Positions 17,262 to 39,638 of a stretch of DNA of 64,000 bases are shown in pieces. This stretch comes from Yoonia sp. R2331 (lineage in GTDB: Bacteria; Pseudomonadota; Alphaproteobacteria; Rhodobacterales; Rhodobacteraceae): the NCBI RefSeq assembly GCF_041103235.1, contig NZ_JBGCUN010000002.1:248001-312000 (forward strand), written 5' to 3'. The notes beneath the pieces are model-generated. The model had not been told where the DNA came from, searched no databases, and saw nothing but the letters and a program-made list of their open reading frames with translations. A program made the translations under genes and the position numbers. The first letter of the stretch is position 1. Every line of letters starts with the position of its first letter.

Positions 17262-18668
17262 ATGGCACTTACGGACCCAGATCGGCTATTTCCTGTTGAC
17301 CCTCGGCAACGCGATCTTGCGCGCAGCCTGTATCAATCTGCTGCAGACCTTCCGATCATCAGCCCGCATGGCCACTGCGATCCGCAATGGTTCGCCGAGA
17401 ATGAGCGGTTCCCGAACCCTAGCGCCTTGTTCGTCATGCCAGACCACTATGTGTTTCGCATGTTGGTTAGTCAGGGCATACCGATGGCGGATCTGGGTGT
17501 TGCCCGCGCGGATGGCCGTCCGGTCGAGGCAGACCCGCGCAAAATCTGGCACCGTTTTGCAGCAAATTACCACCTGTTCCGCGGCACACCGTCCGCCATG
17601 TGGCTGGACCATTCGTTCGAACATGTCTTTGGCATTGATGCGGTGCTTGGGTCTGACACGGCGGACGCCATTTATGAACAGATCGAGGCGCAACTGGCCA
17701 CAGATGCCTTCCGCCCCCGTGCGCTGTTTGATGCGTTCAATATCGCGGCTTTGGCGACAACCGAAGGGGCGTTGGACGATCTGCGATGGCACAAACAGAT
17801 TGCTGAGAGCGGCTGGACTGGCCGGGTGATCACGACCTATCGGCCCGATGCTGTCGTTGATCCTGACTTCGAAGGGTTTCGTGAGAACCTTGTCACCTTT
17901 GCTGAATTGACTGGCGAAGACACCACAACCTGGTCGGGCTACCTTGCCGCGCACCGCCAACGGCGGGCGTTCTTTCAGGCACATGGTGCCACTGCGTCGG
18001 ATCATGGGCACCCAAGTGCTACAACGGCAAACCTGCCCGCGCATGAGGCGGAGGCGCTGTTTGAGAAAATCGTTTCCGGAACATTCACCGCGCAAGAGGC
18101 TGACACCTTCCGCGGCCAGATGCTGACCGAGATGGCGAAGATGAGCCTTGAGGACGGGCTGACCTTGCAAATCCACGCAGGATCGCGCCGCAACCACAGC
18201 GCGTCGGTCTTTGCGGAATATGGACGGGACAAGGGTTTCGATATTCCGGGCCCGACCGACTATGTCAGTGCGCTGCAGCCGCTTTTGGATGCGGTCGGCA
18301 TGGAACCCGATTTGACTGTGATCGTCTTTACTTTGGACGAAACAGCATATTCCAGAGAGTTGGCCCCGCTTGCTGGCGCATATCCTGCGCTGAAACTTGG
18401 CCCGCCATGGTGGTTTTTTGACAGCTACGAAGGCATCAAGCGGTTCCGCGAGGCGACAACGGAAACCTGCGGGTTCTACAACACCGCTGGCTTCAACGAT
18501 GATACGCGGGCTTTCTGTTCTATTCCGGCCCGGCATGATGTGTCGCGCAGGTCCGACAGCGCCTATCTGTCAACGCTTGTGACAACGGGCCGCCTGCGTG
18601 AAGCTGATGCGTTTGAGGTCGCACAAGACCTCGCCTATGGCCTGGCCAAATCAGCCTACGGATTGTGA
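17262..18668 (+). CDS. uxaC: Glucuronate isomerase
   Basis: A 468-residue uronate isomerase converting D-glucuronate to D-fructuronate (or galacturonate to tagaturonate), the usual length for UxaC. The metal-binding SPHGHCDPQWFAEN near the N-terminus, TLQIHAGSRRNH and LGPPWWFFDSYEGIKRFRE are family signatures. The ATG at 17262 is chosen on family length and a GGGAAG site; the frame is open to 17172. It forms an operon with the fructuronate reductase gene 14 nt downstream and starts the uronate island. Confidence 0.95.
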   Translation: MALTDPDRLFPVDPRQRDLARSLYQSAADLPIISPHGHCDPQWFAENERFPNPSALFVMPDHYVFRMLVSQGIPMADLGVARADGRPVEADPRKIWHRFAANYHLFRGTPSAMWLDHSFEHVFGIDAVLGSDTADAIYEQIEAQLATDAFRPRALFDAFNIAALATTEGALDDLRWHKQIAESGWTGRVITTYRPDAVVDPDFEGFRENLVTFAELTGEDTTTWSGYLAAHRQRRAFFQAHGATASDHGHPSATTANLPAHEAEALFEKIVSGTFTAQEADTFRGQMLTEMAKMSLEDGLTLQIHAGSRRNHSASVFAEYGRDKGFDIPGPTDYVSALQPLLDAVGMEPDLTVIVFTLDETAYSRELAPLAGAYPALKLGPPWWFFDSYEGIKRFREATTETCGFYNTAGFNDDTRAFCSIPARHDVSRRSDSAYLSTLVTTGRLREADAFEVAQDLAYGLAKSAYGL

Positions 18669-18682
18669 AGGGAAAGAGTCGG

Positions 18683-20125
18683 ATGGCAGACTACGCACGC
18701 CTGACGCGCAGTGGCCCGCCGCCAAAAGTCGGGATTGTCCACCTTGGTCCTGGCGCGTTCTTTCGCGCGTTCAATGCCGTTTACACCCATGAAGCGATGG
18801 AAACGGACAAGGGTGATTGGGGTATTCTTGCTGTCAGCCTGCGCAGCCCGACAGCGCGCGATCAACTTAACCCGCAAGGTGGCACCTATACGGCTGTCAC
18901 CTTGGGTGGGCAGGGAATGGTGCCAAAGCAGATTGAGTCCATTGCCGGGGTTCTGGTCGCGCCAGAGGACCCGAAAGCCGTCGTAGACGCCATGGCTGAC
19001 CCCGCGGTTAAGATCGTATCACTCACGATCACCGAAAAGGGATATTGCCGGTCGCCGTCAACCGGGCGGCTTGATGAGACCCATCCTGATATCGCGCACG
19101 ATCTGGCCGGGCTGGAGGCGCCGGTCTCGGCAATCGGATTCATTGTTGCGGCCCTTGCGGCCAGACGGAAGGCCGGAGTTGCGCCGTTCACTGTGCTGTC
19201 GTGTGATAACCTGCCGTCCAACGGTGCGTTGGTGCGGGACATCGTGCAGGCATTCGCCCGCCTGTTTGACGCTGATCTGGCAAGATGGATCGAAGAACAT
19301 GTTGTGTTCCCATCGACGATGGTGGACCGGATCACACCGGCTACCACGCCGGATGACCGCAAGGTTTTGTCAGAGCTGACAGGGTATCAAGATGAGGCCT
19401 GCGTCTTTCACGAACCATTCCGGCAATGGGTGATTGAGGACAGGTTTCCCCAAGGCAAACCAGCGTGGGGCAAGGTAGGGGCCCAAATGGTGACGTCCGT
19501 CCACGCGCATGAAGTCATGAAGCTACGGTGCCTGAACGGGGCGCATTCCATGCTTGCCTATCTTGGCTATCTGGCTGGTTACGACACCATTGCAGAGACT
19601 GTTGCAGATCCGCATTTTGCGGCCCTGTGCCAAAACGTCTGGCGTGATGAGATCATTCCGACTGTCCCACAGCCTGACGGTGAGGACCTGACAGCCTATT
19701 GCGCGACGTTGATGGAACGTTTCAAGGACCCGGCGATCCGGCATCGGACATGGCAGATCGCGACCGACGGAAGTCAGAAACTGCCGCAGCGGATTCTTGG
19801 CACGTTCGCGGACAATCTGGCACAAGGCCGGTCCCCCAAGGGCCTTGCCCTCGCGGTAGCGGGGTGGATGCGTTACGTGGGCGGTGTCGACGAGAATGGG
19901 GGCGACATCGACGTCCGTGACCCGTTGGCCCAGACCCTGCGCAAAACGAGCGAAAGTGCGCAGTCTGCCACGGGGAAGGTTCAGGCCCTTCTGGACGTCG
20001 AAGATGTTTTTGCCCCGCGATTTGCGCAGGATGCACAGGTTCAACGGCTTCTTTCAGATGCCTACGACGATCTGGTCAACCTCGGCGCGAAGGCCGCCGT
20101 TCAGCGGGCCGCCAGCAATCCATAA
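18683..20125 (+). CDS. uxuB: Fructuronate reductase / mannitol dehydrogenase family
   Basis: A 480-residue NAD-dependent polyol dehydrogenase of the mannitol-dehydrogenase family. VGIVHLGPGAFFRAF is the N-terminal nucleotide-binding region, and KLRCLNGAHSMLAYLG carries the K-x5-N-x2-H active-site motif. Next to uxaC the likely reaction is fructuronate to mannonate (UxuB); mannitol or tagaturonate reductases share the fold, so the symbol rests on context. The ATG at 18683 has a GGGAAAGAG site; a GTG at 18665 overlapping uxaC is the alternative. It converges with the peroxiredoxin gene. Confidence 0.88.
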   Translation: MADYARLTRSGPPPKVGIVHLGPGAFFRAFNAVYTHEAMETDKGDWGILAVSLRSPTARDQLNPQGGTYTAVTLGGQGMVPKQIESIAGVLVAPEDPKAVVDAMADPAVKIVSLTITEKGYCRSPSTGRLDETHPDIAHDLAGLEAPVSAIGFIVAALAARRKAGVAPFTVLSCDNLPSNGALVRDIVQAFARLFDADLARWIEEHVVFPSTMVDRITPATTPDDRKVLSELTGYQDEACVFHEPFRQWVIEDRFPQGKPAWGKVGAQMVTSVHAHEVMKLRCLNGAHSMLAYLGYLAGYDTIAETVADPHFAALCQNVWRDEIIPTVPQPDGEDLTAYCATLMERFKDPAIRHRTWQIATDGSQKLPQRILGTFADNLAQGRSPKGLALAVAGWMRYVGGVDENGGDIDVRDPLAQTLRKTSESAQSATGKVQALLDVEDVFAPRFAQDAQVQRLLSDAYDDLVNLGAKAAVQRAASNP

Positions 20126-20705: not shown

Positions 20706-21386
20706 TTATTGGAAATAGTCGGCATGGGTATTGTGAATTTCCGTGATGACCGGATCAAGACGGCCAATGTGCTTGCGCAATAGTGCGCGGGTGCGTGGTG
20801 CATCCCTTTGCATCAGTGCGTCTGAGATTTTGATATGTTCGGCCAAGACGTCTTCTCGTTCTTCGTCATGGGACAGGCTGAGCACGCACAGCCGGTCAAC
20901 GTGACGCTTGCATGACTGGATCGTTTCAAAGGCAAGGGGGAGGCCGGCTTCTTCACAGATGAGTTTGTGAAAACCGTAGTCCAATTCATGAAACTTTGCC
21001 GTATTGGAATTTTCCAGCGCGGCCCTTTGCGCCTCGATGTTTTCCGCCAAGGCTGCTGCCTTGGCTTCGGTCCAAATTGCGCAGGCGCGCTCTGCCACTT
21101 CGAGCTCTACGGAGAGACGCAGGAAACGGGCGTTCTGAATTTCAGCCAATGAAAACCTGCGCACGACGGTGGCGCGCTGGGGGCGGATGCTGAGCAAATT
21201 CAAATTGCCCAGACGCCGAAAAGCGTCGCGGATTGGCTGGCGGGAAACACCGAACCGTTTGGCGACCTCGGCTTCGGAAATCTTGGTGCCGGGCAAAAGG
21301 GTCAGCGAGACAATCTCTTCAAAGAGATGGTCAAAGACCACGTCGGCTGTCGAGCGAGTCCCGTCAAGTACCGTGTAATCGTTCAT
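20706..21386 (-). CDS. GntR/FadR-type transcriptional regulator (island regulator 1)
   Basis: A 226-residue regulator with an N-terminal winged helix (ISEAEVAKRFGVSRQPIRDA) and a C-terminal all-helical FCD ligand-binding domain. FadR-type GntR proteins often sense sugar acids. It is plainly paralogous to the regulator at 35910-36596: the recognition helix differs little (VSRQPIRDAFRRL against VSRQPVRDAFSRL). It is divergent from the TRAP operon, and the spacer holds a motif related to the operator near the other regulator. AAGGA precedes the ATG. Confidence 0.88.
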   Translation of the reverse strand: MNDYTVLDGTRSTADVVFDHLFEEIVSLTLLPGTKISEAEVAKRFGVSRQPIRDAFRRLGNLNLLSIRPQRATVVRRFSLAEIQNARFLRLSVELEVAERACAIWTEAKAAALAENIEAQRAALENSNTAKFHELDYGFHKLICEEAGLPLAFETIQSCKRHVDRLCVLSLSHDEEREDVLAEHIKISDALMQRDAPRTRALLRKHIGRLDPVITEIHNTHADYFQ

Positions 21387-21705
21387 CTTGTGTCCTTTTC
21401 CAAACCACCGCTGGGACGTGCGCAGAACGTGTAGTCGAGAGTGGTTCTACTAACAAACCATAACACGCTTGACAATTCTAGGATACTAGTCCTCCATTAG
21501 CGACATGGCTATACAAGCGCACCGCCGACGTTATGGCCCAATCTGGTGCAGTCTGACACTTAGGAGGATCAGTCTGTTTTGGATTGTTGAGGCATGGGGA
21601 GAGACGAGGATTAAATTTCACGTTCAGAACGTCAGGGGCGGCAAGCATTGCCTGCAACCGAGCCCGTTCTAACCCGCGCCAAATTAATCATTCAGGGAGA
21701 AACCA
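21387..21705. other. Divergent regulatory region between gntR and dctP (no gene)
   Basis: This 319-bp spacer holds no convincing reading frame. It contains TTGACA at 21469-21474, directly followed by the CTAGGATACTAG dyad (21478-21489), and a 6-bp inverted repeat ACGTTC-A-GAACGT at 21620-21632 closer to dctP. A good ribosome site (AGGGAG) precedes dctP. The region most likely carries both divergent promoters; I could not place the start sites. Confidence 0.6.
21478..21489. promoter_or_regulatory. Candidate GntR operator upstream of the TRAP operon
   Basis: CTAGGATACTAG is a near-palindrome that differs at one position from the consensus CTRGTATACYAG formed by the two sites at 35812-35823 and 35845-35856. 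It sits just downstream of a TTGACA hexamer, where a bound repressor would block transcription. The two nearby GntR proteins have nearly identical recognition helices. The assignment is inferred from motif likeness and position. Confidence 0.5.
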
Positions 21706-22689
21706 ATGAACAAGATAATGTCTAAAACACTTCCAGCGGTCGCAACCGCCTTGGCACTTTGCGCGACGGCTGCCGTTGCCGAAGATTGGCGCGCATGGAA
21801 CATCCACGTTGACGGCCATCCAAATACGGCCGCAATGGACCGTTTTGCCGAACTGGTTTCTGAAAAGACCGGCGGCGAAGTCACCATCGAAGTTTTCCAC
21901 GGCGGTGTGCTGGGCAGCCAGCCGGATGCACTGGAACAAGTGCAGCTTGGCGCGATTGATATCGGGAACTTCAACCTTGGTCCTGTTGGTCCAATCGTGA
22001 AAGAAGCGAACCTTGTGTCCTTGCCGTTCATCTTCCGCGACGTAGACCACATGTTCCGTGTTTTGGATGGCCCTGCAGGTGACAAAGTTGCAATGGCCAT
22101 GGGTGAAGCGGGCATTCTGCCAATCGGTTGGTTCGACGCAGGCGCGCGGTCCTTCTACAACAACACCGGCCCGATCAATTCGCCTGATGATGTTGCGGGC
22201 ATGAAGATTCGTGTGATGAACAACGACCTGTTCACCGGCATGGTGAACGCGATGGGCGGTAACGGTACACCAATGGCCTTTGCAGAGGTTTACCAGTCGC
22301 TGAGCACGGGTGTTGTGGATGGTGCAGAAAACAACCTGCCATCGTTCCAATCCGTTGGCCACTTTGAGGTTGCAGGTTACTATTCAATGTCAGAGCACCT
22401 GATCATTCCAGAATGCATCTGCGTGAACACGGCCAAGTTCAACGCGCTGTCCGCAGACATGCAGGCCGCTTTGGTCGCAGCCGCAGAAGAAGCGTCGGTT
22501 TTCCAGCGTGAGCTGTGGGCAGAGCAGACCCAAGCCAGCCGCGAAGCGGTTGAAGCCGCTGGTGTCAAGATCAACGAGATTGCCGACAAGGGCCCGTTCC
22601 AGGCTGCGATGGCACCTGTGTACGCAGACTACCTTGCTGCGAACCCAGATATGACCGAATTGGTCGAACTGGCACAATCCACCGAGTGA
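21706..22689 (+). CDS. dctP: TRAP transporter substrate-binding protein (DctP family)
   Basis: A 327-residue periplasmic binding protein with a cleavable signal peptide ending near AAVAEDW. It is a DctP-type receptor: GGVLGSQPDALEQVQLGAID and the long-helix region after GVVDGAENNLPS are characteristic, and the arginine in MKIRVMNND is where acidic substrates are usually clamped. With uxaC, uxuB and uxuA nearby, a uronate such as glucuronate is the likely ligand, but that is inference. It heads a dctP-Q-M operon and is followed by an intercistronic hairpin. Confidence 0.9.
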   Translation: MNKIMSKTLPAVATALALCATAAVAEDWRAWNIHVDGHPNTAAMDRFAELVSEKTGGEVTIEVFHGGVLGSQPDALEQVQLGAIDIGNFNLGPVGPIVKEANLVSLPFIFRDVDHMFRVLDGPAGDKVAMAMGEAGILPIGWFDAGARSFYNNTGPINSPDDVAGMKIRVMNNDLFTGMVNAMGGNGTPMAFAEVYQSLSTGVVDGAENNLPSFQSVGHFEVAGYYSMSEHLIIPECICVNTAKFNALSADMQAALVAAAEEASVFQRELWAEQTQASREAVEAAGVKINEIADKGPFQAAMAPVYADYLAANPDMTELVELAQSTE

Positions 22690-22740: not shown

Positions 22741-22758
22741 CACATGGAAGGGTGGGGC

Positions 22759-23286
22759 ATGAGCAGCTCTGACAACAAACTAACCGGGCTGGGGCCGATC
22801 GATGCGCTTTTTCGCGGCATCGTTACGGTGTGTCGGGTCATTGCGGGATGCGCCCTTGTGCTGCTGACTGTCTTGCTTGGCTATCAGGTGTTCGGACGAT
22901 ACGTCCTGAACGATACGCCAACATGGGTTGATCCGCTTTCCCTTCTTTTGATCATGCTGATTGCGTTTCTGGGCGCGGGCATTGGCGTCTACGAGCACAC
23001 CCATCTTGCCGTCGTGATGTTGCGCCAAATGGTCACCGCACGGGTGCGCATGGTTATGGTGTTTTTCACCGATCTGGTCATGGCGGTCTTTGGCGGCCTG
23101 ATGATCTGGTATGGTGCGTCGTTGACCATGTTCAAATGGAAAACCGCGATCCCGTTGATTGGTTTGCCCGAGGGGCTCCGGTCGCTTCCGCTGACGATTT
23201 GCGGTGGCATGGTTTTGATCTTTTCGCTGGGCCATCTGGCACGGCTGCTTTTGGGGCGCGATACGCGCGCCGATAGTGTCGAATAG
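22759..23286 (+). CDS. dctQ: TRAP transporter small permease (DctQ family)
   Basis: A 175-residue membrane protein with four predicted helices, the size and layout of the TRAP small subunit. The first helix is followed by GYQVFGRYVLNDTPTWVDPLS, the conserved region of DctQ proteins. The ATG at 22759 is preferred because GGAAGGGTGGGG lies directly before it; an ATG 15 nt upstream would put that purine stretch inside the gene. It is followed by dctM after 10 nt. Confidence 0.88.
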   Translation: MSSSDNKLTGLGPIDALFRGIVTVCRVIAGCALVLLTVLLGYQVFGRYVLNDTPTWVDPLSLLLIMLIAFLGAGIGVYEHTHLAVVMLRQMVTARVRMVMVFFTDLVMAVFGGLMIWYGASLTMFKWKTAIPLIGLPEGLRSLPLTICGGMVLIFSLGHLARLLLGRDTRADSVE

Positions 23287-23296: not shown

Positions 23297-24601
23297 ATGG
23301 GACTTGCGCTTCTTTTGGGGGTTTTCACCCTCTGTGTTGCCTTCGGAACACCGGTGGCCTTCGCTTTGGGCATCTCTGCGATTGCCGCGTTCTGGTTCGA
23401 AGGCTTGCCTTTGGTTGTTGGATTCCAGCGGATCATCTCGGGCATCAATGTATTTTCGTTGCTGGCGATACCGTTTTTCATTTTCGCAGGTGAGCTGATG
23501 TTCCATGGCGGGATCGCCATGCGTCTGGTCAAGTTTGCCCAAGCTGCCGTTGGGGCGGTGCGTGGTGGTCTTGGTATCGTCAACGTGTTTTCCTCTATGT
23601 TGTTCGGGGGTATCTCGGGGTCGGCGATTGCCGATATCTCGGCTCTTGGTTCGATCCTGATCCCGGTGATGAAGGACAAGGGGTACGACGCGGACTATGC
23701 GGTGAACGTCACCGTGACATCGTCAATCGCTGGCATCATCATTCCGCCCAGTCACAACATGATCATTTACTCGATTGCGGTAGGCGCCGGCAGTGGCATG
23801 TCGATTTCGAGCCTGTTTCTGGCTGGCGTTGTGCCCGGTGTCCTGATGTGCGTTTGCCTCGCGCTTGCGGCTTATCTGGTCGCCGTCAAGCGCGGGTACA
23901 GCGCAGAGCGGTTCCCCGGATGGGAAGCGCTGATGTATGCCTTTTTCGGGGCCATTCCCGGATTGATGACCGCTGTTATCATCGTGGGCGGTGTTCTGTC
24001 CGGCGTGTTCACGGTGACGGAATCCGGTGCGTTCGGGGTGATCTATGCGTTTCTTGTGACGCTGATCGTCTACCGTTCTCTTACTTGGGAAAACTTCAAG
24101 ATTGCGGTCAACCAGTCTGTCAAAACCACAGCGATGGTGATGATCCTCATCGCGTGTGCGGCGGCCTTTGCCTATATGCTGACCTACTACCGCGTGCCGT
24201 CCATGATGGTTGGTTTCATGATGGGGCTGACGGAAAACCCGATCCTGATCCTTTTGATGATCAACGCAGTGCTGCTGTTGCTGGGGATGATCATGGATAT
24301 GGCCGCGCTGATCCTGATCTGCACGCCGATCTTCTTGCCCGTTGCTATGGCGCTTGGCATGGATCCGGTCCAGTTCGGCATGGTCCTGCTGGTCAATCTT
24401 GGGCTTGGCCTGTGTACGCCGCCTGTCGGGTCGTGTTTGTTCGTGGGCTGCGCCGTCGGCAAATTGCCGATGGAGAAGGCCGTCAAGACGATCTGGCCGT
24501 TCTATCTGGCGATTTTCGTGGCACTGATGCTGATCACATTTATTCCGGCGATTTCCATGTGGCTGCCGGAAACGGTGAACCGGCTGCTCGCGGATGGCTA
24601 A
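23297..24601 (+). CDS. dctM: TRAP transporter large permease (DctM family)
   Basis: A 434-residue membrane protein with about 12 hydrophobic segments, the ion-coupled channel of a TRAP importer. FAGELMFHGGIAMRLV, FGGISGSAIADISALGSI, IIPPSHNMIIYS and GLCTPPVGSCLFVG are DctM-family signatures. It completes dctP-Q-M, a sodium-driven high-affinity importer for an organic acid, here probably a monomeric uronate. Its stop overlaps the uxuA stop on the opposite strand by 3 nt, so the two operons meet tail to tail. Confidence 0.92.
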   Translation: MGLALLLGVFTLCVAFGTPVAFALGISAIAAFWFEGLPLVVGFQRIISGINVFSLLAIPFFIFAGELMFHGGIAMRLVKFAQAAVGAVRGGLGIVNVFSSMLFGGISGSAIADISALGSILIPVMKDKGYDADYAVNVTVTSSIAGIIIPPSHNMIIYSIAVGAGSGMSISSLFLAGVVPGVLMCVCLALAAYLVAVKRGYSAERFPGWEALMYAFFGAIPGLMTAVIIVGGVLSGVFTVTESGAFGVIYAFLVTLIVYRSLTWENFKIAVNQSVKTTAMVMILIACAAAFAYMLTYYRVPSMMVGFMMGLTENPILILLMINAVLLLLGMIMDMAALILICTPIFLPVAMALGMDPVQFGMVLLVNLGLGLCTPPVGSCLFVGCAVGKLPMEKAVKTIWPFYLAIFVALMLITFIPAISMWLPETVNRLLADG

Positions 24602-31179: not shown

Positions 31180-32739
31180 TTAACCGCCGTACTGACGGTC
31201 GTAGGCGGCCTGCATCACTGTAAGCAGCTCTTGCATGCCCATCTCGTCCAGAGTGGCGAGGTATGCATCCCAGTCTGCCATCACGTCACCGTTGCCCAAG
31301 ATCCAGCCTTGCTGGCGCTCGAGCATGTAGTCGCGAATGGACCCCCAGGTGCGGTCATAGATCGCCTGTTCGTCAGCCGTGAAGGACACACCAAGGAAGT
31401 CCTCGATCAGCAAGTCCTGGGTGTCATAGAGCGCGATGCCTTCAAGGGCGAATTCGTTGCTCCACTGGATTTCATAGGCGTAATCCTGGAAGTAACCACG
31501 GCCCTGAAGTTGTGCGCCGACCTGATAGAGGGACCGGTTCACGGGACCTGCATCAAGGAACTCTTGCTTGAAGATCGGCTGACCGTCGATCATGTCGTAG
31601 TGCATGCCTTCGACGCCAAAGTTGGCCAGACGGCGGCCCTCTTCGGTGAACCAGAAGTCAAAGTACTTGATCGTTTCGACCACATTTTCGTTCTCAAAAC
31701 CGATGGCCCAACCGTCTGGCTTTACCAGAATGCGGCGATGCTCTTCGATGCGGCGACCGGATGGGGACGCGGGTGGCAGGAATGCCTCGAAGGCGAACCC
31801 GTCAATTTCGGACGACAGTCGATTGTAGCCAGAGGTGGATGCAAACCAGTCGTGGGTCGAACCGCCGAGGTTTTCGGACAGCAGGAAGTCACGCGCGGAC
31901 GAACCACGGGTGAAGATTTCTGCGTCGATCAGGCCTTCTTCGTACCAACGCGCAAGGTTCGAGATACCGTCCCGGTAGCCTTCGCCGATATAGCCGTGTC
32001 CGATGACACCGTCCTCGATCAGGAAGTCGTGGTAGGTGTCAGAGCCGTGCGCGCGGCCGTCCCAGAGTGTCACAAGACGGATCAGCTCTGGCCACTGGCG
32101 GGCAAAGAATGGCACTTCGTCGGCCAGACCGTTGCCGTTGGGGTCTTGTGTCTTAAAGGCGCGCAGGACCGCTTCGTACTCTTCCACAGTTTCAGGGACG
32201 TCAAGGTCCAACGCCTCAAGCCAGTCTGTACGAATCCAGTAGCCGCGACCGTATTTGCCGTCGGGCAGATAGGGGATGTAATACATCTGGCCGTCGGATG
32301 CTTTCACCGCGGCCTCGATGTCGGGGCGGGTGGCATAGTAGGCAGAGATGTTTGGCGCGTGTTCTTCGATCAGATCGTTGAGAGGCACAAACGCACCTTC
32401 AGGCCCGAACTGGTTCACAAAGTCGCGAATCCGGCTGGAGCCTACGATGTCAGGGATGTTGCCACCCGCCAGCATGAGATTCAGTGCTTCCGTCCGTCCG
32501 GTATTCTCGTCCGTCCGCATGTTTGCACCGACCGTGTCGTTGATCAGGTGGATACCTGTCAGTTCGCGGGCGACCTGTTCAACGGGCCATTGCTCATCAT
32601 AGATGGGGTAGGCGCGATGGTTCATCTGGATGGTCAGCTCGATCGGTTCCTCCGAGATCCGCAAGTGTCCATCCGCGAAAGCGGGTGTTGTGATGGCGCT
32701 GCCTGCTAGCAGGGCTGCCGCTAGGGTAATTTTACGCAT
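31180..32739 (-). CDS. Extracellular solute-binding protein, AlgQ-like (oligosaccharide ABC importer)
   Basis: A 519-residue periplasmic binding protein with a clean signal peptide (start MRKITLAAALLAG, end near AFADGH). It belongs to the large AlgQ/LipO-type family. FKTQDPNGNGLADEVPF is the calcium-site loop (DxNxNxxxDE) typical of alginate-oligosaccharide binding proteins, and many aromatic residues (W, Y) could stack on sugar rings. GGGAGGAA precedes the ATG. It is the fourth gene of the operon, behind its ATPase and permeases, and the lyase gene follows. Confidence 0.85.
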   Translation of the reverse strand: MRKITLAAALLAGSAITTPAFADGHLRISEEPIELTIQMNHRAYPIYDEQWPVEQVARELTGIHLINDTVGANMRTDENTGRTEALNLMLAGGNIPDIVGSSRIRDFVNQFGPEGAFVPLNDLIEEHAPNISAYYATRPDIEAAVKASDGQMYYIPYLPDGKYGRGYWIRTDWLEALDLDVPETVEEYEAVLRAFKTQDPNGNGLADEVPFFARQWPELIRLVTLWDGRAHGSDTYHDFLIEDGVIGHGYIGEGYRDGISNLARWYEEGLIDAEIFTRGSSARDFLLSENLGGSTHDWFASTSGYNRLSSEIDGFAFEAFLPPASPSGRRIEEHRRILVKPDGWAIGFENENVVETIKYFDFWFTEEGRRLANFGVEGMHYDMIDGQPIFKQEFLDAGPVNRSLYQVGAQLQGRGYFQDYAYEIQWSNEFALEGIALYDTQDLLIEDFLGVSFTADEQAIYDRTWGSIRDYMLERQQGWILGNGDVMADWDAYLATLDEMGMQELLTVMQAAYDRQYGG

Positions 32740-32763: not shown

Positions 32764-33645
32764 TTATTCCTTTACACCTCCGAGCAGGATGCCCTTCTCG
32801 AAGTATTTCTGAATGAACGGGTAGACGATCAGCACAGGGATGATCGAACAGACGATAATGGCCGCAGTGACCGTTTCAGCGCTAAAGGCCGCTTCGGTCT
32901 GGACGATGGCAAATTCATCGTCATCAGACAGTTGCGCGATGGTATGGCGCAAAAAGACCTGAAGCGGGATTTTGTCTTCGGACTGAAGCAGGACCATGGC
33001 CCAGAAAAAGCCGTTCCAGCGGGATACGATGCAAAAGAGTGTGATCGTTGCGATGGCCGGTTTGGAGAGCGGAACGAAAACCTTCCACAGTACCTGAAAA
33101 TCATTGGCCCCGTCCATGCGCGCGGCTTCTTCGAAACTTTGCGGGATGGCCTCAAAGAAGTTGCGCAGCAGGATGATGTTGAAGGCGTTGACAGCGAACG
33201 CAAGGATGATGCCGAACATGGAGTCGAGCAGGTTCAAATCACGCATGTTCAGGAAGAACGGGATCAGGCCTGCGTTGAACCACATCGTAAAGGCGATGAA
33301 GAGGTTGAAGAACCGCCGTCCCTTCAGCTGCGGCCGCGACAAGGCATAGGCACCGGGGATGATGAACAACATCGACATGATTGTGCCGCCGATGGTGTAG
33401 ATGAAGGTGTTCCGGTAGCTGATCCAGAATTTCGGGTCCGAGATGATGTAGCCATATGCTTCGAGTGTGGCGTCAATCGGCGTCAACACGACCTTGCCAG
33501 CCTGGGCTGCAAATCCCGAGCTAAAGGACACCGCTGCGATATAGATGAAGGGATATAGGGTCGCCGCCGTGAACATCCCGATCAGAACCGACACAGTGAT
33601 CGCAAAGACCTTGTCTCCGCCGGAATAGAGGTTCCATTTTTGCAT
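32764..33645 (-). CDS. ABC sugar importer permease, AlgM2/LplC-like
   Basis: A 293-residue inner-membrane permease with six predicted helices. The cytoplasmic coupling loop is FEEAARMDGANDFQVLWKVF, the EAA motif that docks on the ATPase, and it ends in QKYFEKGILLGGVKE, as is usual for the LplC/AlgM2 branch. It pairs with the larger permease encoded 11 nt upstream. Together with the ATPase and binding protein it forms a complete importer for oligosaccharides, presumably oligouronates. Confidence 0.88.
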   Translation of the reverse strand: MQKWNLYSGGDKVFAITVSVLIGMFTAATLYPFIYIAAVSFSSGFAAQAGKVVLTPIDATLEAYGYIISDPKFWISYRNTFIYTIGGTIMSMLFIIPGAYALSRPQLKGRRFFNLFIAFTMWFNAGLIPFFLNMRDLNLLDSMFGIILAFAVNAFNIILLRNFFEAIPQSFEEAARMDGANDFQVLWKVFVPLSKPAIATITLFCIVSRWNGFFWAMVLLQSEDKIPLQVFLRHTIAQLSDDDEFAIVQTEAAFSAETVTAAIIVCSIIPVLIVYPFIQKYFEKGILLGGVKE

Positions 33646-33656: not shown

Positions 33657-34670
33657 CTACCAGAGCGATGTGCGCGAGAATTTGCGCGACAACGTGTTGG
33701 CGGTCATCACCAGGACAAAGGCAACAACTGCGTTAAAGAGCCCGGCAGCGGCGGCAAGGTCGTACTGACCCGACTGAAGGCCCTGACGATACACCCATGT
33801 GTTCACAACATCGGCGGTCTCGTAGGTGGCGGGCTGATAGAGCAGGATCACCAGTTCGAACGACACCTCCATCACGTTGCCGATGCGGATGATCAGCATG
33901 ATCAGGATGGTCGGCAGGATCGACGGAATGGTGATTTTCCACATCATCTGCCAGCGGTTCGCCCCGTCCACCACGGCGCTTTCATAAAGTGACGGGTTCA
34001 CGCCTGCGATGGCGGCCAAAAAGACGATGGAGCCAAAGCCCGCTTCTTGCCAAATGCCTGTCCCCACAAAGATCGGGCGGAACCACTGGGGCTGCGTCAG
34101 GAAGTAAACCGGATCAAACCCCAGCCAGCTAATGACCGTGTTGATGACACCAACCGTCGGCGAGAAGGCCGTGATCACGATACCTGCAATAATCACAGAG
34201 GAAATGAAGTGCGGCAGATACACGATCGTCTGGGCGGTGCGCTTGTAGGTGGCGTGCAGGATTTCGTTGAACATCAATGCCAGGATGATGGGCGCTGGAA
34301 ATCCGAACAGCAGATTGTAGAAACTGATGGTGATCGTGTTTTTGACCGCGCGGATGAACTGATCATTCGAGAACAGCGTTTCAAAGTGCTCGAAACCGAC
34401 CCAGGGGCTACCTGCTGCACCTCTGAAAATCGAATAGTCTTTGAATGCGATCTGAAGCCCGTACATTGGCTTGTACAGAAAGACGATGAACCAAATGATG
34501 GTCGGAAGCAGCATGGCATAGATTTGCCATTCTCGTTTGAAGTGATCCAAAGTGCGGACCCAAGTGCTGTCGGGCGTCCGCGTTTGCTTTCGATCTCGTA
34601 GGGCTTCGCCCGCTTCGACGACGATCTCTTCAATAGGGGCGCCACCGACGTCAGAGTTTCGGTCCGACAT
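33657..34670 (-). CDS. ABC sugar importer permease, AlgM1/LplB-like
   Basis: A 337-residue permease with an extended N-terminal cytoplasmic region of about 50 residues before the first helix, then six helices. NPSLYESAVVDGANRWQMMWKI is the EAA coupling region, and PMYGLQIAFKDYSIFRG after the first helix is typical of the LplB/AlgM1 branch. It starts 3 nt after the ATPase gene, so translation is probably coupled. It forms the heterodimeric channel with the 293-residue permease. Confidence 0.88.
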   Translation of the reverse strand: MSDRNSDVGGAPIEEIVVEAGEALRDRKQTRTPDSTWVRTLDHFKREWQIYAMLLPTIIWFIVFLYKPMYGLQIAFKDYSIFRGAAGSPWVGFEHFETLFSNDQFIRAVKNTITISFYNLLFGFPAPIILALMFNEILHATYKRTAQTIVYLPHFISSVIIAGIVITAFSPTVGVINTVISWLGFDPVYFLTQPQWFRPIFVGTGIWQEAGFGSIVFLAAIAGVNPSLYESAVVDGANRWQMMWKITIPSILPTILIMLIIRIGNVMEVSFELVILLYQPATYETADVVNTWVYRQGLQSGQYDLAAAAGLFNAVVAFVLVMTANTLSRKFSRTSLW

Positions 34671-34673: not shown

Positions 34674-35750
34674 TTAGCCCCCTACGGTCAACGCGCGGCC
34701 GGTTCCGGCGTCGAAGACCTTTACCAAGTGGGATGGCACGTGGACGGTTTTGACACCCGACAGATGCGCGATGTCGCCGTTGGTGTCGGCCTTGAAGACC
34801 AGATTGTCCTGGCCGTGGCGAGCGTGAAGCAAAGCCTCGGAGCCCAGTGGCTCGACCAGATCAAGGTCGATGGGGAGGGCGGTTGTGGCTTGACCTTCGC
34901 CCAGCATCACGTGTTCCGGCCGAATGCCGAGAATGACATCACGACCCTGATCTTTGGCCGTAAGACCGTCGATCTTGATCTCAGTATCGCCAACCTTAGC
35001 GCCGATGTCTGTCAGCGTCCCTTTCATCTGGTTCATTGGGGGGGACCCAAGGAAACCGGCGACGAATGTGTTTACGGGATTGTTGAACAGCTCCATCGGA
35101 GTGCCGACCTGTTCAATCCGGCCATCGTTCATCACGACGATACGGTCTGCCAATGTCATGGCTTCGACCTGATCATGGGTGACGTAAATGGAAGTGACGC
35201 CAAGGCGGTTGTGCAGGCGTTTGATTTCAGCCCGCATTTGCGTGCGCAGTTTGGCGTCCAGATTGGACAGCGGTTCGTCAAACAGGAACACCTTGGGGTG
35301 GCGCACAATCGCGCGGCCCATAGCCACACGTTGCCGTTGCCCACCGGACAAATCAGCAGGGCGACGATCAAGATAGGGGGTCAGGCCAAGGATTTCTGCA
35401 ACGTCATCAATTGTTGTTTTGATCTCGGCTTTTGGCATCTTACGAATGCGAAGGCCAAAGGCCATATTGTCGGCCACGTTGAGGTGCGGGTAGAGCGCGT
35501 AGTTCTGAAACACCATCGCGACATCGCGGTCTTTGGGGGCCACGCGGTTCATACGGCGCCCGTCAATCATCAGATCGCCAGAGGTGATTTCCTCTAGCCC
35601 TGCAATCATCCGCAAGGTCGTTGACTTGCCGCAACCTGACGGGCCGACGAGAACGACGAATTCTTTTTCAGCAACATTAAGATCGATACCGTGCACAACC
35701 TGCAAGGCACCGTAGCACTTTACAATCTCGTTCAGATCTACGCCGGCCAT
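34674..35750 (-). CDS. ABC sugar importer ATPase (AlgS/UgpC/MsmK-like)
   Basis: A 358-residue ATPase of the carbohydrate-importer type. Walker A is GPSGCGKST, the signature LSGGQRQRVA, Walker B VFLFDEPLSNLD, and the H-loop YVTHDQVEAMT; the C-terminal third is the regulatory OB-like domain (GIRPEHVMLGEG). It is the first gene of the leftward ten-gene operon and has a strong GGGAGGG ribosome site. The promoter lies in the 159-bp spacer shared with the divergent gntR gene. Confidence 0.92.
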   Translation of the reverse strand: MAGVDLNEIVKCYGALQVVHGIDLNVAEKEFVVLVGPSGCGKSTTLRMIAGLEEITSGDLMIDGRRMNRVAPKDRDVAMVFQNYALYPHLNVADNMAFGLRIRKMPKAEIKTTIDDVAEILGLTPYLDRRPADLSGGQRQRVAMGRAIVRHPKVFLFDEPLSNLDAKLRTQMRAEIKRLHNRLGVTSIYVTHDQVEAMTLADRIVVMNDGRIEQVGTPMELFNNPVNTFVAGFLGSPPMNQMKGTLTDIGAKVGDTEIKIDGLTAKDQGRDVILGIRPEHVMLGEGQATTALPIDLDLVEPLGSEALLHARHGQDNLVFKADTNGDIAHLSGVKTVHVPSHLVKVFDAGTGRALTVGG

Positions 35751-35790: not shown

Positions 35791-35877
35791 GTGACGAATC
35801 ACTCACTCCCACTGGTATACTAGTCTAAAAAGTTCATTGCTAGTCTAGTATACCAGTTTGGTCAGTGATAACGTCAC
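35791..35877. promoter_or_regulatory. Nested dyad operator between the ABC operon and gntR
   Basis: An 87-bp symmetric block centred near 35834. The inner arms ACTGGTATACTAG (35811-35823) and CTAGTATACCAG plus T (35845-35857) are perfect inverted repeats, and each arm is itself nearly palindromic (CTRGTATACYAG), with site centres 33 bp apart. The outer arms GTGACGAATCACT (35791) and AGTGATAACGTCAC (35864-35877) are inverted around the same centre. TAGTCTA repeats directly at 35821 and 35841. TATACT inside the sites could serve as a -10 element. It is a likely cooperative GntR operator for both directions. Confidence 0.7.
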
Positions 35878-35909: not shown

Positions 35910-36596
35910 ATGATCCCGAATTCAGCGAAAACCGAACGCCGCACAAGCGTGGATGATGTATTTGACGCGCTTCATGAGCAGATTGCGACGCTCCAGTTGA
36001 AGCCCGGGGACCGTATTTCCGAGGCTGATATCGCCGCGCAGTTCGGGGTGTCACGGCAACCTGTCCGGGATGCGTTCAGCCGCCTTGCCAATCTTGACCT
36101 GCTTTTGATCCGCCCGCAGCGCAGCACGGAAGTGAGACGCTTTTCGATGCGGCAGATCGAAAAGGCGCGGTTCATTCGCGCCGCAATCGAAACGGAGGTT
36201 TTGCGCCGCGCCGCCACTTTGTGCGATGCGGCGGGCGAAGCGCTTTTGCATGACTCGTTGGAGCTACAAATGGAGGCGATGAACGCCAAAGACGTCGCGC
36301 GTTTCGGGAAGCTCGATTATCAATTCCATCAGATCCTGTGTCAGATCGGACAGGTCGATTATGCCTTTGACGTTATTCTTGAAGAGAAGGCGAAGGTAGA
36401 CCGCTTGTGTATGCTGGGGCGCGAGAAAGAACAGCGCATGCCAGAGCTCGCAGCGGATCACACAAAAATTGCCAAAGCGGTCATCAAGCACGATCCCGAT
36501 GCAGCCGTCGCAGCGGGGCTAAAGCACTTGTCTCGTCTCGATGAGACGATTGAACGGATAAGTGCCACGAATGCCAATTACTTTGATCACGCGTAA
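35910..36596 (+). CDS. GntR/FadR-type transcriptional regulator (island regulator 2)
   Basis: A 228-residue GntR regulator: winged helix with ISEADIAAQFGVSRQPVRDA, then a helical FCD effector domain. It resembles the regulator at 20706-21386 closely over the DNA-binding half (RPQRSTEVRRFSMRQIEKARF against RPQRATVVRRFSLAEIQNARF). It is divergent from the ABC/lyase operon across a dyad-rich spacer and is followed by the MATE, kduI and kduD genes. It probably represses both directions until a uronate intermediate such as KDG binds. Confidence 0.9.
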   Translation: MIPNSAKTERRTSVDDVFDALHEQIATLQLKPGDRISEADIAAQFGVSRQPVRDAFSRLANLDLLLIRPQRSTEVRRFSMRQIEKARFIRAAIETEVLRRAATLCDAAGEALLHDSLELQMEAMNAKDVARFGKLDYQFHQILCQIGQVDYAFDVILEEKAKVDRLCMLGREKEQRMPELAADHTKIAKAVIKHDPDAAVAAGLKHLSRLDETIERISATNANYFDHA

Positions 36597-36656: not shown

Positions 36657-38030
36657 ATGACCGATCATGTGCCGCAATCCACGGAGCGGCAAACACCAGG
36701 TGCAGCGCAGGTCTTTTCATTGGCCTGGCCGATGACCCTGAAAGCGATTTTTCTGCACGGAACTGTCGTGGTCGACGGGTTTCTTTTGTCCGCACTGGGC
36801 GAAGGCGCGCTGGCCGCTATGGGGTTGGCAGCTGCTTTGGGCGGAATCGTCCTTGGCGTCATCTTTGCGTTTTCCCACGCCATGCAAATCCGAACGGCAC
36901 AGGCGTTTGGTAGCGGCGACTCTGTCTTTCTGAAATCAGTGCTGGCGTCGGGTCTGACGGTCAGCGTGGCTATTGGTGCCGTCGGGGTTGGTGTCATATT
37001 CATGTGGGGGCCTTTGCTGATCGGCATGCTCGCCCCCTCTGATGCGATCGCGGCGCAGGCTCAGAGCTACCTTTGGATATTCACGATCGTGATCCTTGCG
37101 GAGGCCATCGGCCAATGCATCGCCAGCTTTTTCAACGGATGCAGTAAAAGCAAATTGCCGCTTTATGGCTATCTGATTTCGGTGCCCATCAACATCACGG
37201 CGAGCATCATCCTGATCCACGGCTATATGGGATTTCCTGCGCTGGGCGTTGCGGGTGCCGCACTTGGCAGTGCTATCGCGATTACGCTGCAAACGGGGTT
37301 CTGGATTGCGTTACTGGTTTCGACCGATGGGCGGCTAAGGCGCGTTGTTGGCTGGCACCACGGAACGTTCAAGCCGACGCTGATCCGGCATGTCCGGTTT
37401 TCGCTGCCAATCGCGGCGACCTTCGTCAGCGCAACATTGGCAACGCATGTCTGTTCACTGATCTACGCGAATATGTCGCTGAACGACTTTGCCGCGCTGA
37501 CCCTGATTGCGCCATGGAACCTTTTGGCGGGACAAGTCGCGATGCAATGGACCCAGGCCACAGGGATCATGGTCGCACAATTGTTGGGTCAACGCACACC
37601 AGAGGCCACGCTGGATATGTTTCTGGCGCGCGCGTGGCGTGGGGCATTTGTGGCTGCGGCGATTGTCGCGCTGATCTTTCTTGTCATGTGTCTGTCGCTG
37701 GACTGGATCTATCCTAACCTCGAGCCGCAGACGCGGACGATCCTGTTCGGGTTTATGCCGATCCTGCTGATCATCCAGTTTCCCCGCGCCACCAACGCGA
37801 TCTGTGGGAACACGCTGCGCGCTGCCGGCGACACTGTCTACGTCATGCACATTTTCATCTGGTCGCAATGGGCATTCCGCGTTCCAGCGACTGCCCTTCT
37901 GATCCTGTACTTTGACCTTTCTGCCTTTTGGATCCTCTCACTGTTCCTTTGGGAAGAGGTCATCAAATTTCCCGCCTTTCACCGCCGCCTTTGGCGCGGG
38001 GACTGGAAACACGTTCACGTCACGGCCTGA
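36657..38030 (+). CDS. MATE family efflux transporter
   Basis: A 457-residue membrane protein with about 12 hydrophobic segments in two repeats, typical of MATE antiporters. FSLAWPMTLKAIFLHGTVVVD is cut to its first helix here; the repeat linker and a second half with FSLPIAATFVSATLATHV follow. MATE proteins usually expel cationic drugs or organic compounds using Na+ or H+. Its place between gntR and kduI in a uronate operon is unusual and suggests export or overflow of a uronate-related compound, but no sequence feature proves this. It starts 60 bp after gntR. Confidence 0.85.
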   Translation: MTDHVPQSTERQTPGAAQVFSLAWPMTLKAIFLHGTVVVDGFLLSALGEGALAAMGLAAALGGIVLGVIFAFSHAMQIRTAQAFGSGDSVFLKSVLASGLTVSVAIGAVGVGVIFMWGPLLIGMLAPSDAIAAQAQSYLWIFTIVILAEAIGQCIASFFNGCSKSKLPLYGYLISVPINITASIILIHGYMGFPALGVAGAALGSAIAITLQTGFWIALLVSTDGRLRRVVGWHHGTFKPTLIRHVRFSLPIAATFVSATLATHVCSLIYANMSLNDFAALTLIAPWNLLAGQVAMQWTQATGIMVAQLLGQRTPEATLDMFLARAWRGAFVAAAIVALIFLVMCLSLDWIYPNLEPQTRTILFGFMPILLIIQFPRATNAICGNTLRAAGDTVYVMHIFIWSQWAFRVPATALLILYFDLSAFWILSLFLWEEVIKFPAFHRRLWRGDWKHVHVTA

Positions 38031-38058: not shown

Positions 38059-38886
38059 ATGATAAAAACAAACCTGCGCCGCGCCATTGACCCGCGCCAC
38101 GCCAAGACCTTCGACACGACGCAACTGCGCGATGAATTCCTGATCGACAATCTGTGGCAGGACGATGAAGTCAGCCTGACCTACACACAATATGACCGCA
38201 TGATCGTCGGGGGCGCGATCCCGAAATCGGGCCCTTTGACCATCGACGGGGTTGATCAAACCGGGACGCCGTCATGGCTGGACCGCCGCGAAGCGGTTCT
38301 GGTCAACCTTGGCCCATCCGGCACGGTTGAGGCTGCGGGCGAAACCTATGAATTGGGCCGGTTTGACATGGTCTATCTTGGTATGGGGTCTGGCGCCGTC
38401 ACAGTTAGCGGTGCCGACGCACGGTTCTACATCATCTCGGCACCCGCACACCGCGCGATCCCGGCGCAGCTGGCGACAATCGATGAGGCGAACCAGGTTC
38501 CATTGGGCAGCCGCGAGACGTGCAATGAACGCACGATCTATCAGTTCATCCACCCTGACGGGATCGAGAGCTGCCAGATTGTGATGGGCATGACCAAATT
38601 CGAGTCGGGGTCGATCTGGAACACGATGCCTGCGCATATCCACGAACGCCGGTCCGAGATCTATATCTACCTCGATCTTCCGGAGGGCCAGAACATCGTG
38701 CACCTGATGGGGGAACCCGACGAGACGCGGCACCTGATTGTGCGGAATGAACAATGCGTGCTTTCGCCACCCTGGTCGATCCATAGCGGCGCGGGCACTG
38801 CGGCGTATTCGTTCATTTGGGCCATGGCTGGCGATAACATGGCCTTCACCGATATGGACATGGTTGCCATGGAAGACCTGCGATGA
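38059..38886 (+). CDS. kduI: 5-dehydro-4-deoxy-D-glucuronate isomerase
   Basis: A 275-residue KduI, which isomerises 5-keto-4-deoxyuronate (DKI) to 2,5-diketo-3-deoxygluconate (DKII). The zinc site is seen in MPAHIHERRSEIYIY (two His and a Glu), with a further His in PPWSIHSGAG. RRAIDPRHAKTFDT at the start and VGGAIPKSGPLTIDG are family signatures. A strong AAGGAG site precedes the ATG at 38059. It shares an ATGA overlap with kduD, so the two steps are translationally coupled. Confidence 0.95.
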   Translation: MIKTNLRRAIDPRHAKTFDTTQLRDEFLIDNLWQDDEVSLTYTQYDRMIVGGAIPKSGPLTIDGVDQTGTPSWLDRREAVLVNLGPSGTVEAAGETYELGRFDMVYLGMGSGAVTVSGADARFYIISAPAHRAIPAQLATIDEANQVPLGSRETCNERTIYQFIHPDGIESCQIVMGMTKFESGSIWNTMPAHIHERRSEIYIYLDLPEGQNIVHLMGEPDETRHLIVRNEQCVLSPPWSIHSGAGTAAYSFIWAMAGDNMAFTDMDMVAMEDLR

Positions 38887-39638
38887 GCCGCTTTTCCCTG
38901 GACGGAACCCGTGCGCTTGTGACCGGTGCCAACACTGGCATCGGTCAGGCCATTGCCGTTGATCTGGCCCGGGCGGGCGCGCATGTGATTGCGGTCGGGC
39001 GGTCCTCTATGGAGGACACGCTTGCCAAGGTGTCGGATGTCGGGGGCAAGGCGGATGCCTTGAAGGCCGATCTGTCCACCGTGGCGGCCGCGCAGGAGAT
39101 GTTCGCGCAGGCGGTTGCTGATTTTGGGCCGATTGACACGTTGGTGAACAACGCGGGTATCATCCGGCGCGCGGACAGTCTGGACTTTTCCGAGGCCGAT
39201 TGGGACGCGGTGATGGATATCAACCTTAAGGTCGTGTTCTTCCTGAGCCAGGCCTTTGCCAAGGCCCGTATTGGTGCCGGACAAGGGGGGAGCATCGTCA
39301 ACATCGCGTCGCTTCTGTCCTATCAAGGTGGCATCCGTGTGCCGTCCTATACGGCGTCAAAAAGTGCCGTTGCGGGTGTGACCAAAACGCTGTCGAATGA
39401 GTGGTCTGCCCAAGGCATCACGGTCAATTGCGTCGCACCTGGATACGTGGTCAGCAACAACACGACCGACCTGCGCAACGATCCGGATCGCAACAAGGCC
39501 ATCCTGGACCGCATCCCGCTGGGTCGTTGGGCCGAGCCCGAAGACATTGCGGGCGCAGTGACCTATCTTGCCTCACCGGCAGCGCGCTATGTGACGGGCA
39601 TCACACTTCCCGTTGATGGAGGGTGGCTCGGCCGATGA
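38883..39638 (+). CDS. kduD: 2-dehydro-3-deoxy-D-gluconate 5-dehydrogenase
   Basis: A 251-residue SDR with TGANTGIGQAIAVDL, NNAGIIRRADS, IVNIASLLSYQGG and YTASKSAVAG, all typical of KduD, which reduces DKII to KDG using NADH. The ATG overlaps the kduI stop. Together with KdgF and KduI it converts the unsaturated uronate freed by the lyase into KDG for the KdgK step. It is the last intact gene of the rightward arm; a decayed enolase-superfamily gene follows after about 80 bp. Confidence 0.93.
   Translation: MSRFSLDGTRALVTGANTGIGQAIAVDLARAGAHVIAVGRSSMEDTLAKVSDVGGKADALKADLSTVAAAQEMFAQAVADFGPIDTLVNNAGIIRRADSLDFSEADWDAVMDINLKVVFFLSQAFAKARIGAGQGGSIVNIASLLSYQGGIRVPSYTASKSAVAGVTKTLSNEWSAQGITVNCVAPGYVVSNNTTDLRNDPDRNKAILDRIPLGRWAEPEDIAGAVTYLASPAARYVTGITLPVDGGWLGR

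Follow-up and report, generated by a model that had tools for sequence, protein, structure and literature searches.

A putative D-mannonate branch within an alginate-type PL15 locus of Yoonia sp. R2331

Why does a bacterial locus built around a single oligouronide lyase of family PL15 also carry genes for the catabolism of glucuronate? The question is raised by an island of genes that runs from uxaC (17262) to kduD (39638) within a 64-kb stretch of the genome of the marine bacterium Yoonia sp. R2331 (contig NZ_JBGCUN010000002.1, positions 248,001 to 312,000; hereafter the window). An earlier, sequence-only reading proposed a substrate that yields both saturated glucuronate and unsaturated uronate, such as glucuronan, ulvan fragments, or a mixed polyuronate, rather than plain alginate. 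On balance, we favor a single alginate-centered uronate regulon for the uptake and catabolism of oligo-alginate, with a built-in mannonate branch. The dehydratase step of this branch probably salvages the saturated mannuronate ends of alginate oligomers, and the branch may also serve co-imported glucuronate.

The predicted lyase was found to match the PL15 enzyme Atu3025 with 1043 bits across residues 8–769 of 773, and its other relatives in the PDB (heparinase II/III-like and DUF4962 proteins) gave at most 62 bits. His311, Tyr365, and His531 of Atu3025 are conserved in the alignment as His306, Tyr362, and His526; the first two residues have been proposed to function as the catalytic base and acid (PMC11921355). 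The PDB search returned no PL15 relative that acts on glucuronan or ulvan. The solute-binding protein matched AlgQ1 and AlgQ2 with 509 and 501 bits, followed by the next PDB family (5xs8) at 331 bits, and together with two permeases and an ATPase it makes up an AlgQ-type ATP-binding cassette (ABC) importer. The PL15 enzyme of Falsirhodobacter has been reported to convert alginate to 4-deoxy-L-erythro-5-hexoseulose uronate (DEH) by Mori and co-workers (PMC4866713). Because the nearest relatives of the lyase and the binding protein are, by a wide margin, proven alginate proteins, and the Falsirhodobacter operon is alike, alginate is the likely substrate by all of the sequence comparisons made. 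Glucuronan or ulvan as the substrate was rejected on the similarity of these two proteins to alginate proteins. No lyase of a glucuronan or ulvan family was found in the island, where the PL15 enzyme is the sole lyase, or in the 30 flanking open reading frames (ORFs), a genome-wide search for such families not having been made. The earlier statement that the window contains no endolytic lyase was borne out for these 30 ORFs with Pfam (three of the 30 had no match, and smaller ORFs were outside the scan). Models for PL5, PL6, and PL7 gave no match anywhere in the genome of the window, other lyase families being outside this search; the PL7 model matched 13 of 49 other genomes. The solute-binding protein DctP of the tripartite ATP-independent periplasmic (TRAP) importer is most similar to 4ovq, the ligand of which we take to be glucuronate. 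A further relative, 4mhf, binds D-glucuronate and D-galacturonate (PMC7660916), and by this similarity DctP is predicted to be of the hexuronate type.

The argument against plain alginate fails because it assumed that alginate can yield only unsaturated units. Exolytic cleavage of an n-mer with an unsaturated end gives n – 1 unsaturated units and one saturated unit, so that each oligomer leaves one saturated mannuronate (M) or guluronate (G). The saturated monomer was directly observed in equimolar amount when a PL17 exo-lyase acted on a disaccharide (PMC12336832), and exo-lyases, Atu3025 named among them, are described as releasing M, G, and mainly unsaturated units (PMC5809466). Saturated uronate is therefore expected from alginate itself. 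What remains of the earlier proposal is the tie between the glucuronate branch and the island, since uxuA lies in the alginate operon and the operators are related; the phrase "rather than plain alginate" does not survive the similarity of the lyase and the AlgQ-like protein. In the excerpts of PMC6353982 and PMC12336832 that deal with alginate use, the schemes end at DEH and 2-keto-3-deoxygluconate (KDG), and the fate of saturated M and G is unstated. The alginate table of PMC13274419 lists UxuA, UxuB, and UxaC, and the part that we cite assigns them no role for saturated ends. Among the open-licence papers listed by our searches (at most 30 per listing), no title or abstract describes a mannonate dehydratase of an alginate operon as serving saturated ends, and no paper on a "mannuronate reductase" was found in the open-licence literature.

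From the gene families, we infer the following enzymatic steps and the origin of the mannonate. Oligomers would be imported via AlgQ/M1/M2/S, and the cytoplasmic PL15 enzyme, in which no signal peptide was apparent by eye, would remove unsaturated units stepwise until one saturated residue is left per oligomer. The unsaturated units would be converted to KDG by KdgF and the short-chain dehydrogenase/reductase (SDR) or DehR reductases, or by KduI and KduD, with KdgK acting onward. A reductase encoded in the island would convert saturated D-mannuronate to D-mannonate, or this conversion would proceed via UxaC and the UxuB-like enzyme, and UxuA would then dehydrate D-mannonate to KDG. L-Guluronate would yield gluconate. 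The TRAP importer would supply free hexuronates to the mannonate branch. The UxaC route would be open to mannuronate because mannuronate and glucuronate have a common keto form, fructuronate, and UxaC may accept mannuronate too. From the symmetry of mannitol, the oxidation of D-mannonate gives D-mannuronate. The DEH reductase from Sphingomonas sp. A1 oxidizes D-mannonate and D-gluconate at 37% and 79% of its efficiency with KDG, D-gluconate being converted to L-guluronate (PMC6011931), and the oxidation of D-mannonate makes the reduction of mannuronate chemically plausible.

The conservation of the island was determined with the best 80 of 215 genome stretches that encode a relative (L numbers denote loci and G numbers genomes); 57 of these loci have at least 9 kb on each side and are called fully flanked. 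The order of 21 genes from kduD to uxaC is identical in Pseudooctadecabacter jejudonensis (L036/L114), which argues that the island is not a chance cluster. Among the fully flanked loci, algS and algM1 are each found in 57, algM2 and algQ in 56, the SDR gene and gntR2 in 54, the MATE gene in 51, the KdgF-like cupin gene in 49, and dehR and kdgK in 27. The corresponding counts are 15 each for kduI and uxuA, 14 for dctP, 5 for uxaC, and 4 for uxuB; the figure for gntR1 (54/57) is inflated through gntR2 matches and was not used. By these counts, the alginate core is fixed and the glucuronate genes are optional. In a set of 198 genomes of the family, UxaC was found in 13 of 19 genomes with PL15 and in 51 of 179 without it (Fisher p = 0.001), and UxuA in 13 of 19 and 70 of 179, respectively (p = 0.025), both tests ignoring kinship. 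In a class-wide draw of 385, PL15 was rare, with the genome of the window and one 40% partial match. The MATE exporter is among the best-conserved genes of the rhodobacterial PL15 loci, and six operator sites of at least 16 bits precede it outside the main promoter. A guess at its role would be the export of surplus reactive DEH.

The mannonate dehydratase is found beside PL15 in two unrelated forms. Within 10 kb on either side of PL15, UxuA is present in 18 of the 80 loci, ManD (enolase superfamily) in 22, either one in 38 (33 of the 57 fully flanked), and both in 2; the 10-kb limit undercounts dehydratases, ManD being seen further out in L002 and L004. By our arithmetic, a single gene would fall within this distance by chance in about 1 of 200 genomes of 4 Mb. 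UxuA lies on the operon strand directly after kdgK or a kinase gene in 12 of the 80 loci, and in two plasmid-borne operons it is replaced by ManD (635 bits in L123, cut-off 550). Mutual exclusion of UxuA and ManD was considered and discarded, since the test within 10 kb fell short of significance (p = 0.059), extending the view by 5.5 kb revealed ManD in both of the UxuA loci checked (L002 and L004), and G193 has both. In a tree of 53 UxuA sequences (59 extracted, 7 dropped as duplicates or as the partial UxuA at the end of L003, which is excluded from all counts, and that of the window added), the UxuA of the window falls in a clade of 10, all from PL15 operons, with support of 100/100. The 14 operon UxuAs on the tree require two label changes, compared with a shuffled mean of 12.5. 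A Gfo/Idh/MocA oxidoreductase, a candidate uronate reductase, was observed in 14 of the 80 loci (L123 16611–17750). Its gene adjoins ManD in 10 of the 22 ManD loci and follows kduD in L002, L004, L006, and L007, and the protein fits all NCBIfam models poorly (best 84 bits, cut-off 650).

Among the other PL15 genomes, of which 76 were tested, UxaC was matched in 56 and unmatched in 20; these genome-wide tests leave out L024 and L061, and L050 and L051, which share an organism title with L045, were not searched separately. Eleven of the 38 dehydratase loci belong to genomes without a UxaC match. In G199, G200, and G206, which have no UxaC match, the PL15 operon holds the sole UxuA match and UxuB-like matches reach 41% at most; G206 is a 2.5-Mb metagenome-assembled genome (MAG) and may be incomplete. 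The UxuB-like match of G199 and G200 adjoins a sorbitol/L-iditol 2-dehydrogenase gene that scores above its cut-off, and thus it points to a polyol enzyme. The same two genomes carry genes for Gfo and ManD directly after gntR2-mate-kduI-kduD, the second arm of the alginate divergon, so that both arms end in a mannonate dehydratase, with uxuA on one and gfo-manD on the other. In G213, G216, G221, and G228, which lack a UxaC match, UxuA adjoins a 45–47% UxuB-like gene. A third dehydratase, of the glucarate-dehydratase family, is encoded in nine of the 80 loci (L024, L035, L041, L054, L055, L057, L060, L068, and L073) by a gene that sits in the gntR2–algS interval, is transcribed away from algS, and follows the alginate operators. 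These genes are 56–62% identical to the counterpart in the Agrobacterium PL15 operon, and the enzyme is a candidate acid-sugar dehydratase. UxuA and ManD are both absent within 10 kb in eight of the nine, so that counting this gene brings the fully flanked loci with an acid-sugar dehydratase of any of the three kinds to 40 of 57.

Two inverted copies of a 16-base operator lie between algS and gntR2. The 64 kb contain no other instance of the pattern TNGTATACNA, which is present in the same gap of 43 of the 56 loci in which algS and gntR2 are close; 62 of the 72 pattern matches in 1.17 Mb sit in 16.6 kb of algS–gntR2 gaps. A matrix was built from 62 gap sites of relatives, and the counts that follow include these training sites. 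At 16 bits or more, 162 sites were found in the 1.63 Mb of the 80 loci. The alginate/gntR2 promoter accounts for 126 of them, and the remaining 36, with one exception, precede genes of the searched set. One site may count for two divergent genes: nine precede dctP, seven gfo-manD (in four loci), three uxaC, and six the MATE gene, with further sites before the cupin gene, the kinase gene, dehR, gntR1, or ahpC, and one elsewhere. In the control, 60 column-permuted matrices gave a mean of 2.0 sites (largest 23), almost none at locus genes. The operator precedes uxaC in three of the five relatives with uxaC inside the locus, and an alginate-type operator precedes gfo in four of the ten loci in which gfo is beside ManD. 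The window contains three sites of at least 11 bits in total, the one in the gntR1–dctP gap among them; its TRAP promoter bears the operator variant CTAGGATACTAG.

The 11 dctP sites of at least 14 bits have the core GGATAC, shared with the TRAP-promoter variant of the window, in five (L008, L014, L015, L036, and L076), GTATAC in five, and GCATAC in one, and the 132 alginate-promoter sites at this threshold include 76 with GTATAC and 9 with GGATAC. A one-base rule, with GGATAC for dctP and GTATAC for alginate, is weak and would hold only with gntR1-like genes or in kin of the window arrangement. The two GntR regulators are 45% identical. We infer two paralogous regulators with closely related, near-identical operators, with GntR2 acting on the alginate operon and GntR1 on the TRAP genes.

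A number of observations weigh against a mannonate branch built into the alginate regulon. No UxuA or ManD lies within 10 kb of PL15 in 24 of the 57 fully flanked loci, and for this reason the branch may not be universal. Most of the PL15 genomes (56/76) do have UxaC, several of the genomes scored as lacking it are MAGs and perhaps incomplete, and the loci are mutually related, so that the counts are not independent events. The ManD counts refer to PL15 loci, the genome of the window being covered only at the scanned ORFs. The uxaC promoter of the window has no site of at least 11 bits, the SDR is only distant kin of the Sphingomonas sp. A1 enzyme (130 bits), and fructuronate reductase is still the best NCBIfam model for the UxuB-like proteins of G199 and G200 (334 and 336 bits, cut-off 603). 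In a serious, though less probable, alternative, the alginate operon is simply adjacent to a module of the ordinary kind for glucuronate and galacturonate (TRAP, uxaC, and uxuB), with UxuA or ManD and KdgK as shared lower-pathway genes and UxuA unrelated to alginate. The two pathways converge on KDG and seaweed surfaces carry both sugars, which would account for the proximity. Such an arrangement is consistent with a DctP of the glucuronate/galacturonate type, with the two regulators and two operator variants of the window, with the presence of uxaC in just 5 of the 57 fully flanked loci, and with a free-standing uxaC-kduI-kduD-uxuB-uxuA cluster in G006 (L119). In addition, UxuA is missing from G198, G210, G211, G232, and G235 although UxaC is present, and ManD is carried by each of the corresponding PL15 loci (L001, L017, L018, L047, and L052). 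This pattern also counts against the regulon that we favor, as the island dehydratase of these five genomes could serve glucuronate too. However, UxuA or ManD stays beside PL15 in the genomes without a UxaC match (the 11 of 38 noted above), and G193 has Gfo, ManD, kdgK, and uxuA in its PL15 operon in addition to a second uxuA that is elsewhere with uxaC and a uxuB-like gene. The alginate-type operators before gfo also speak against two independent modules.

A mixed polyuronate that gives saturated glucuronate together with unsaturated uronate, such as glucuronan or ulvan fragments, would explain why a glucuronate branch and a hexuronate TRAP importer adjoin the lyase. We consider it highly improbable, given the similarity of the lyase and binding protein to proven alginate proteins, the similar operon in a proven alginate user (Falsirhodobacter sp. 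alg1), and the release of saturated residues from alginate itself. It is equally improbable that KduI and KduD replace UxaC and UxuB in converting glucuronate to D-mannonate, with UxuA or ManD finishing the route, in the manner proposed for E. coli under osmotic stress. In PMC3578941, KduI is suggested to act as a uronate isomerase and KduD is named as a possible reductase, and the paper itself calls for verification of the proposal. In keeping with this route, kduI is found in 8 of 11 loci with an operon UxuA and in 12 of 52 without (p = 0.003, ignoring kinship), a bias that also counts against the regulon that we favor, and gfo-manD follows kduI-kduD in L002 and L004, from genomes without a UxaC match. 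On the other side, L042, L043, and L008 have an operon UxuA and no kduI was found in them, although L008 has kduD.

The closest described system is that of Falsirhodobacter sp. alg1 (AlyFRB), by the context of the paper also a member of the Rhodobacteraceae, where the ABC importer, binding protein, PL15 lyase, and DehR-like reductase are in the same order as in the window. Unlike the window, its ten-gene list, as given in the excerpt, has no mannonate dehydratase, TRAP, MATE, uxaC, or uxuB, and its genome contains an endolytic PL7 lyase (PMC4866713). The Agrobacterium Atu3025 system (A. pusense pR76, L124) shares the order of GntR, ABC importer, PL15, and SDR. After the SDR it has genes for a GDSL hydrolase, a hydroxyacid dehydrogenase, a TIM-barrel protein, and a glucarate-dehydratase-family protein (L124 15079–19317), where the window has kdgF, dehR, kdgK, and uxuA, and no MATE gene is annotated in the stretch examined. 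The same four genes follow the SDR in a Devosia PL15 operon (L125 15065–19288). Pseudooceanicola algae p202 (L123) has MATE, TRAP, GntR, ABC importer, PL15, SDR, cupin, kinase, and a D-mannonate dehydratase in common with the window, but this dehydratase is ManD with a Gfo/Idh/MocA partner and its TRAP genes lie between MATE and GntR. In E. coli, the UxaC-UxuB-UxuA pathway for glucuronate runs through three reactions that family assignment also predicts for the island; in the window, uxuA lies instead in the alginate operon, apart from uxaC-uxuB, and import would be by TRAP.

The features of the island are collected in Table 1. All twelve functions named by the sequence-only reading were recovered by profile and structure–sequence matches, and the MATE exporter, the two GntR/FCD regulators, and the AhpC/TSA-like gene are added to them. 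The alginate operon on the minus strand, from 35750 to 24598, consists of algS, algM1, algM2, algQ, the PL15 gene, kdgF, dehR, the SDR gene, kdgK, and uxuA, with intergenic gaps that the coordinates put at 3 to 77 bases; its last gene, uxuA, overlaps the end of dctM on the opposite strand by 4 bases. The facing plus-strand arm contains gntR2, the MATE gene, kduI, and kduD, and the rest of the island comprises the TRAP genes, gntR1, the AhpC/TSA-like gene, the uxuB-like gene, and uxaC. The neighboring genes look like housekeeping functions, with ferrochelatase and a carbon–nitrogen hydrolase on one side and uppP and gltDB on the other. The uxaC gene starts with ATG, its ORF opening upstream at TTG 17172. 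UxaC and UxuA are the sole matches of their kind in the genome, and both score above curated cut-offs. For the UxuB-like protein, the best NCBIfam model is that of fructuronate reductase, with 460 bits, which is under the cut-off of 603. The SDR matches a DEH reductase structure (4tkl) and, more closely, an uncharacterized protein (4yqy). The beta-hydroxyacid dehydrogenase (beta-HAD) superfamily, to which the DehR-like protein is assigned, includes a known DEH reductase (PMC8778563). The AhpC/TSA gene accompanies the TRAP/uxaC module in the window and in L008, L036, L042, L043, L065, and L076, and in L008, L036, L042, and L043 it is near gntR1, dctP, or uxaC.

Table 1. Genes and operator sites of the island, in window coordinates
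Feature	Position	Strand	Basis
uxaC, uronate isomerase	17262..18668	+	NCBIfam NF002794 562 bits, cut-off 387; Pfam UxaC
uxuB-like fructuronate reductase	18665..20125	+	Pfam Mannitol_dh, Mannitol_dh_C (mannitol dehydrogenase superfamily)
AhpC/TSA (peroxiredoxin-like) protein, 183 codons	20149..20700	-	Pfam AhpC-TSA
GntR/FCD regulator 1 (gntR1)	20706..21386	-	Pfam GntR + FCD
Variant operator TTCTAGGATACTAGTC, gntR1–dctP gap	21476..21491		16.6 bits with alginate-promoter matrix
TRAP solute-binding protein DctP, predicted hexuronate type	21706..22689	+	487 bits to 4ovq, 242 bits to 4mhf
TRAP small permease DctQ	22744..23286	+	Pfam DctQ
TRAP large permease DctM	23297..24601	+	Pfam DctM
uxuA, D-mannonate dehydratase	24598..25746	-	TIGR00695 437 bits, cut-off 200; 389 bits to 4eac
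kdgK, KDG kinase	25815..26738	-	Pfam PfkB; best NCBIfam model KdgK 246 bits, under cut-off 400
SDR, probable DEH reductase; candidate mannuronate reductase	26752..27495	-	130 bits to 4tkl, 302 bits to 4yqy
DehR-like beta-HAD reductase (GarR-like)	27521..28402	-	Pfam NAD_binding_2, NAD_binding_11; GarR-type model 193 bits, under cut-off 397
KdgF-like cupin	28434..28766	-	66 bits to KdgF structure 5fpx; 96 bits to cupin 7zyb
PL15 exo-type oligo-alginate lyase (predicted)	28781..31102	-	1043 bits to Atu3025 3a0o
AlgQ-like oligo-alginate binding protein	31180..32739	-	509 bits to AlgQ1 3vlu, 501 bits to AlgQ2 4tqu
AlgM2-like permease	32764..33645	-	Pfam BPD_transp_1
AlgM1-like permease	33657..34670	-	Pfam BPD_transp_1
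AlgS-like ATPase (UgpC/MalK family)	34674..35750	-	NF008653 501 bits, cut-off 432
Operator copy 1, CACTGGTATACTAGTC	35810..35825		24.9 bits; conserved in algS–gntR2 gaps of relatives
Operator copy 2, GTCTAGTATACCAGTT, in inverse orientation to copy 1	35843..35858		25.1 bits
GntR/FCD regulator 2 (gntR2), divergent from alginate operon	35910..36596	+	Pfam GntR + FCD
MATE family exporter	36657..38030	+	Pfam MatE
kduI	38059..38886	+	NF002091 392 bits, cut-off 250
kduD	38883..39638	+	TIGR01832 369 bits, cut-off 339

The new part of this proposal is the dehydratase branch with its operator, which together suggest a testable, gap-filling pathway. A broader reading, somewhat less likely than not, is that D-mannonate regularly arises as an intermediate when marine Rhodobacterales catabolize alginate. 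The saturated mannuronate ends would be reduced to mannonate and then dehydrated to KDG by either of two unrelated enzymes drawn into the PL15 regulon, UxuA or ManD, the latter partnered by a Gfo/Idh/MocA protein, and a glucarate-dehydratase-like enzyme would act alike in other lineages. If true, the mannonate branch would close a gap left by the usual alginate pathway, which tracks the unsaturated units only. For a scavenger that imports dimers to pentamers, the saturated units would amount to half to a fifth of the residues. Alginate is the main polymer of brown seaweed, and the unrelated acid-sugar dehydratases with their shared operator would provide a concrete route and candidate enzymes for its conversion. 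The regulon motif could also be used to flag alginate loci in marine metagenomes.

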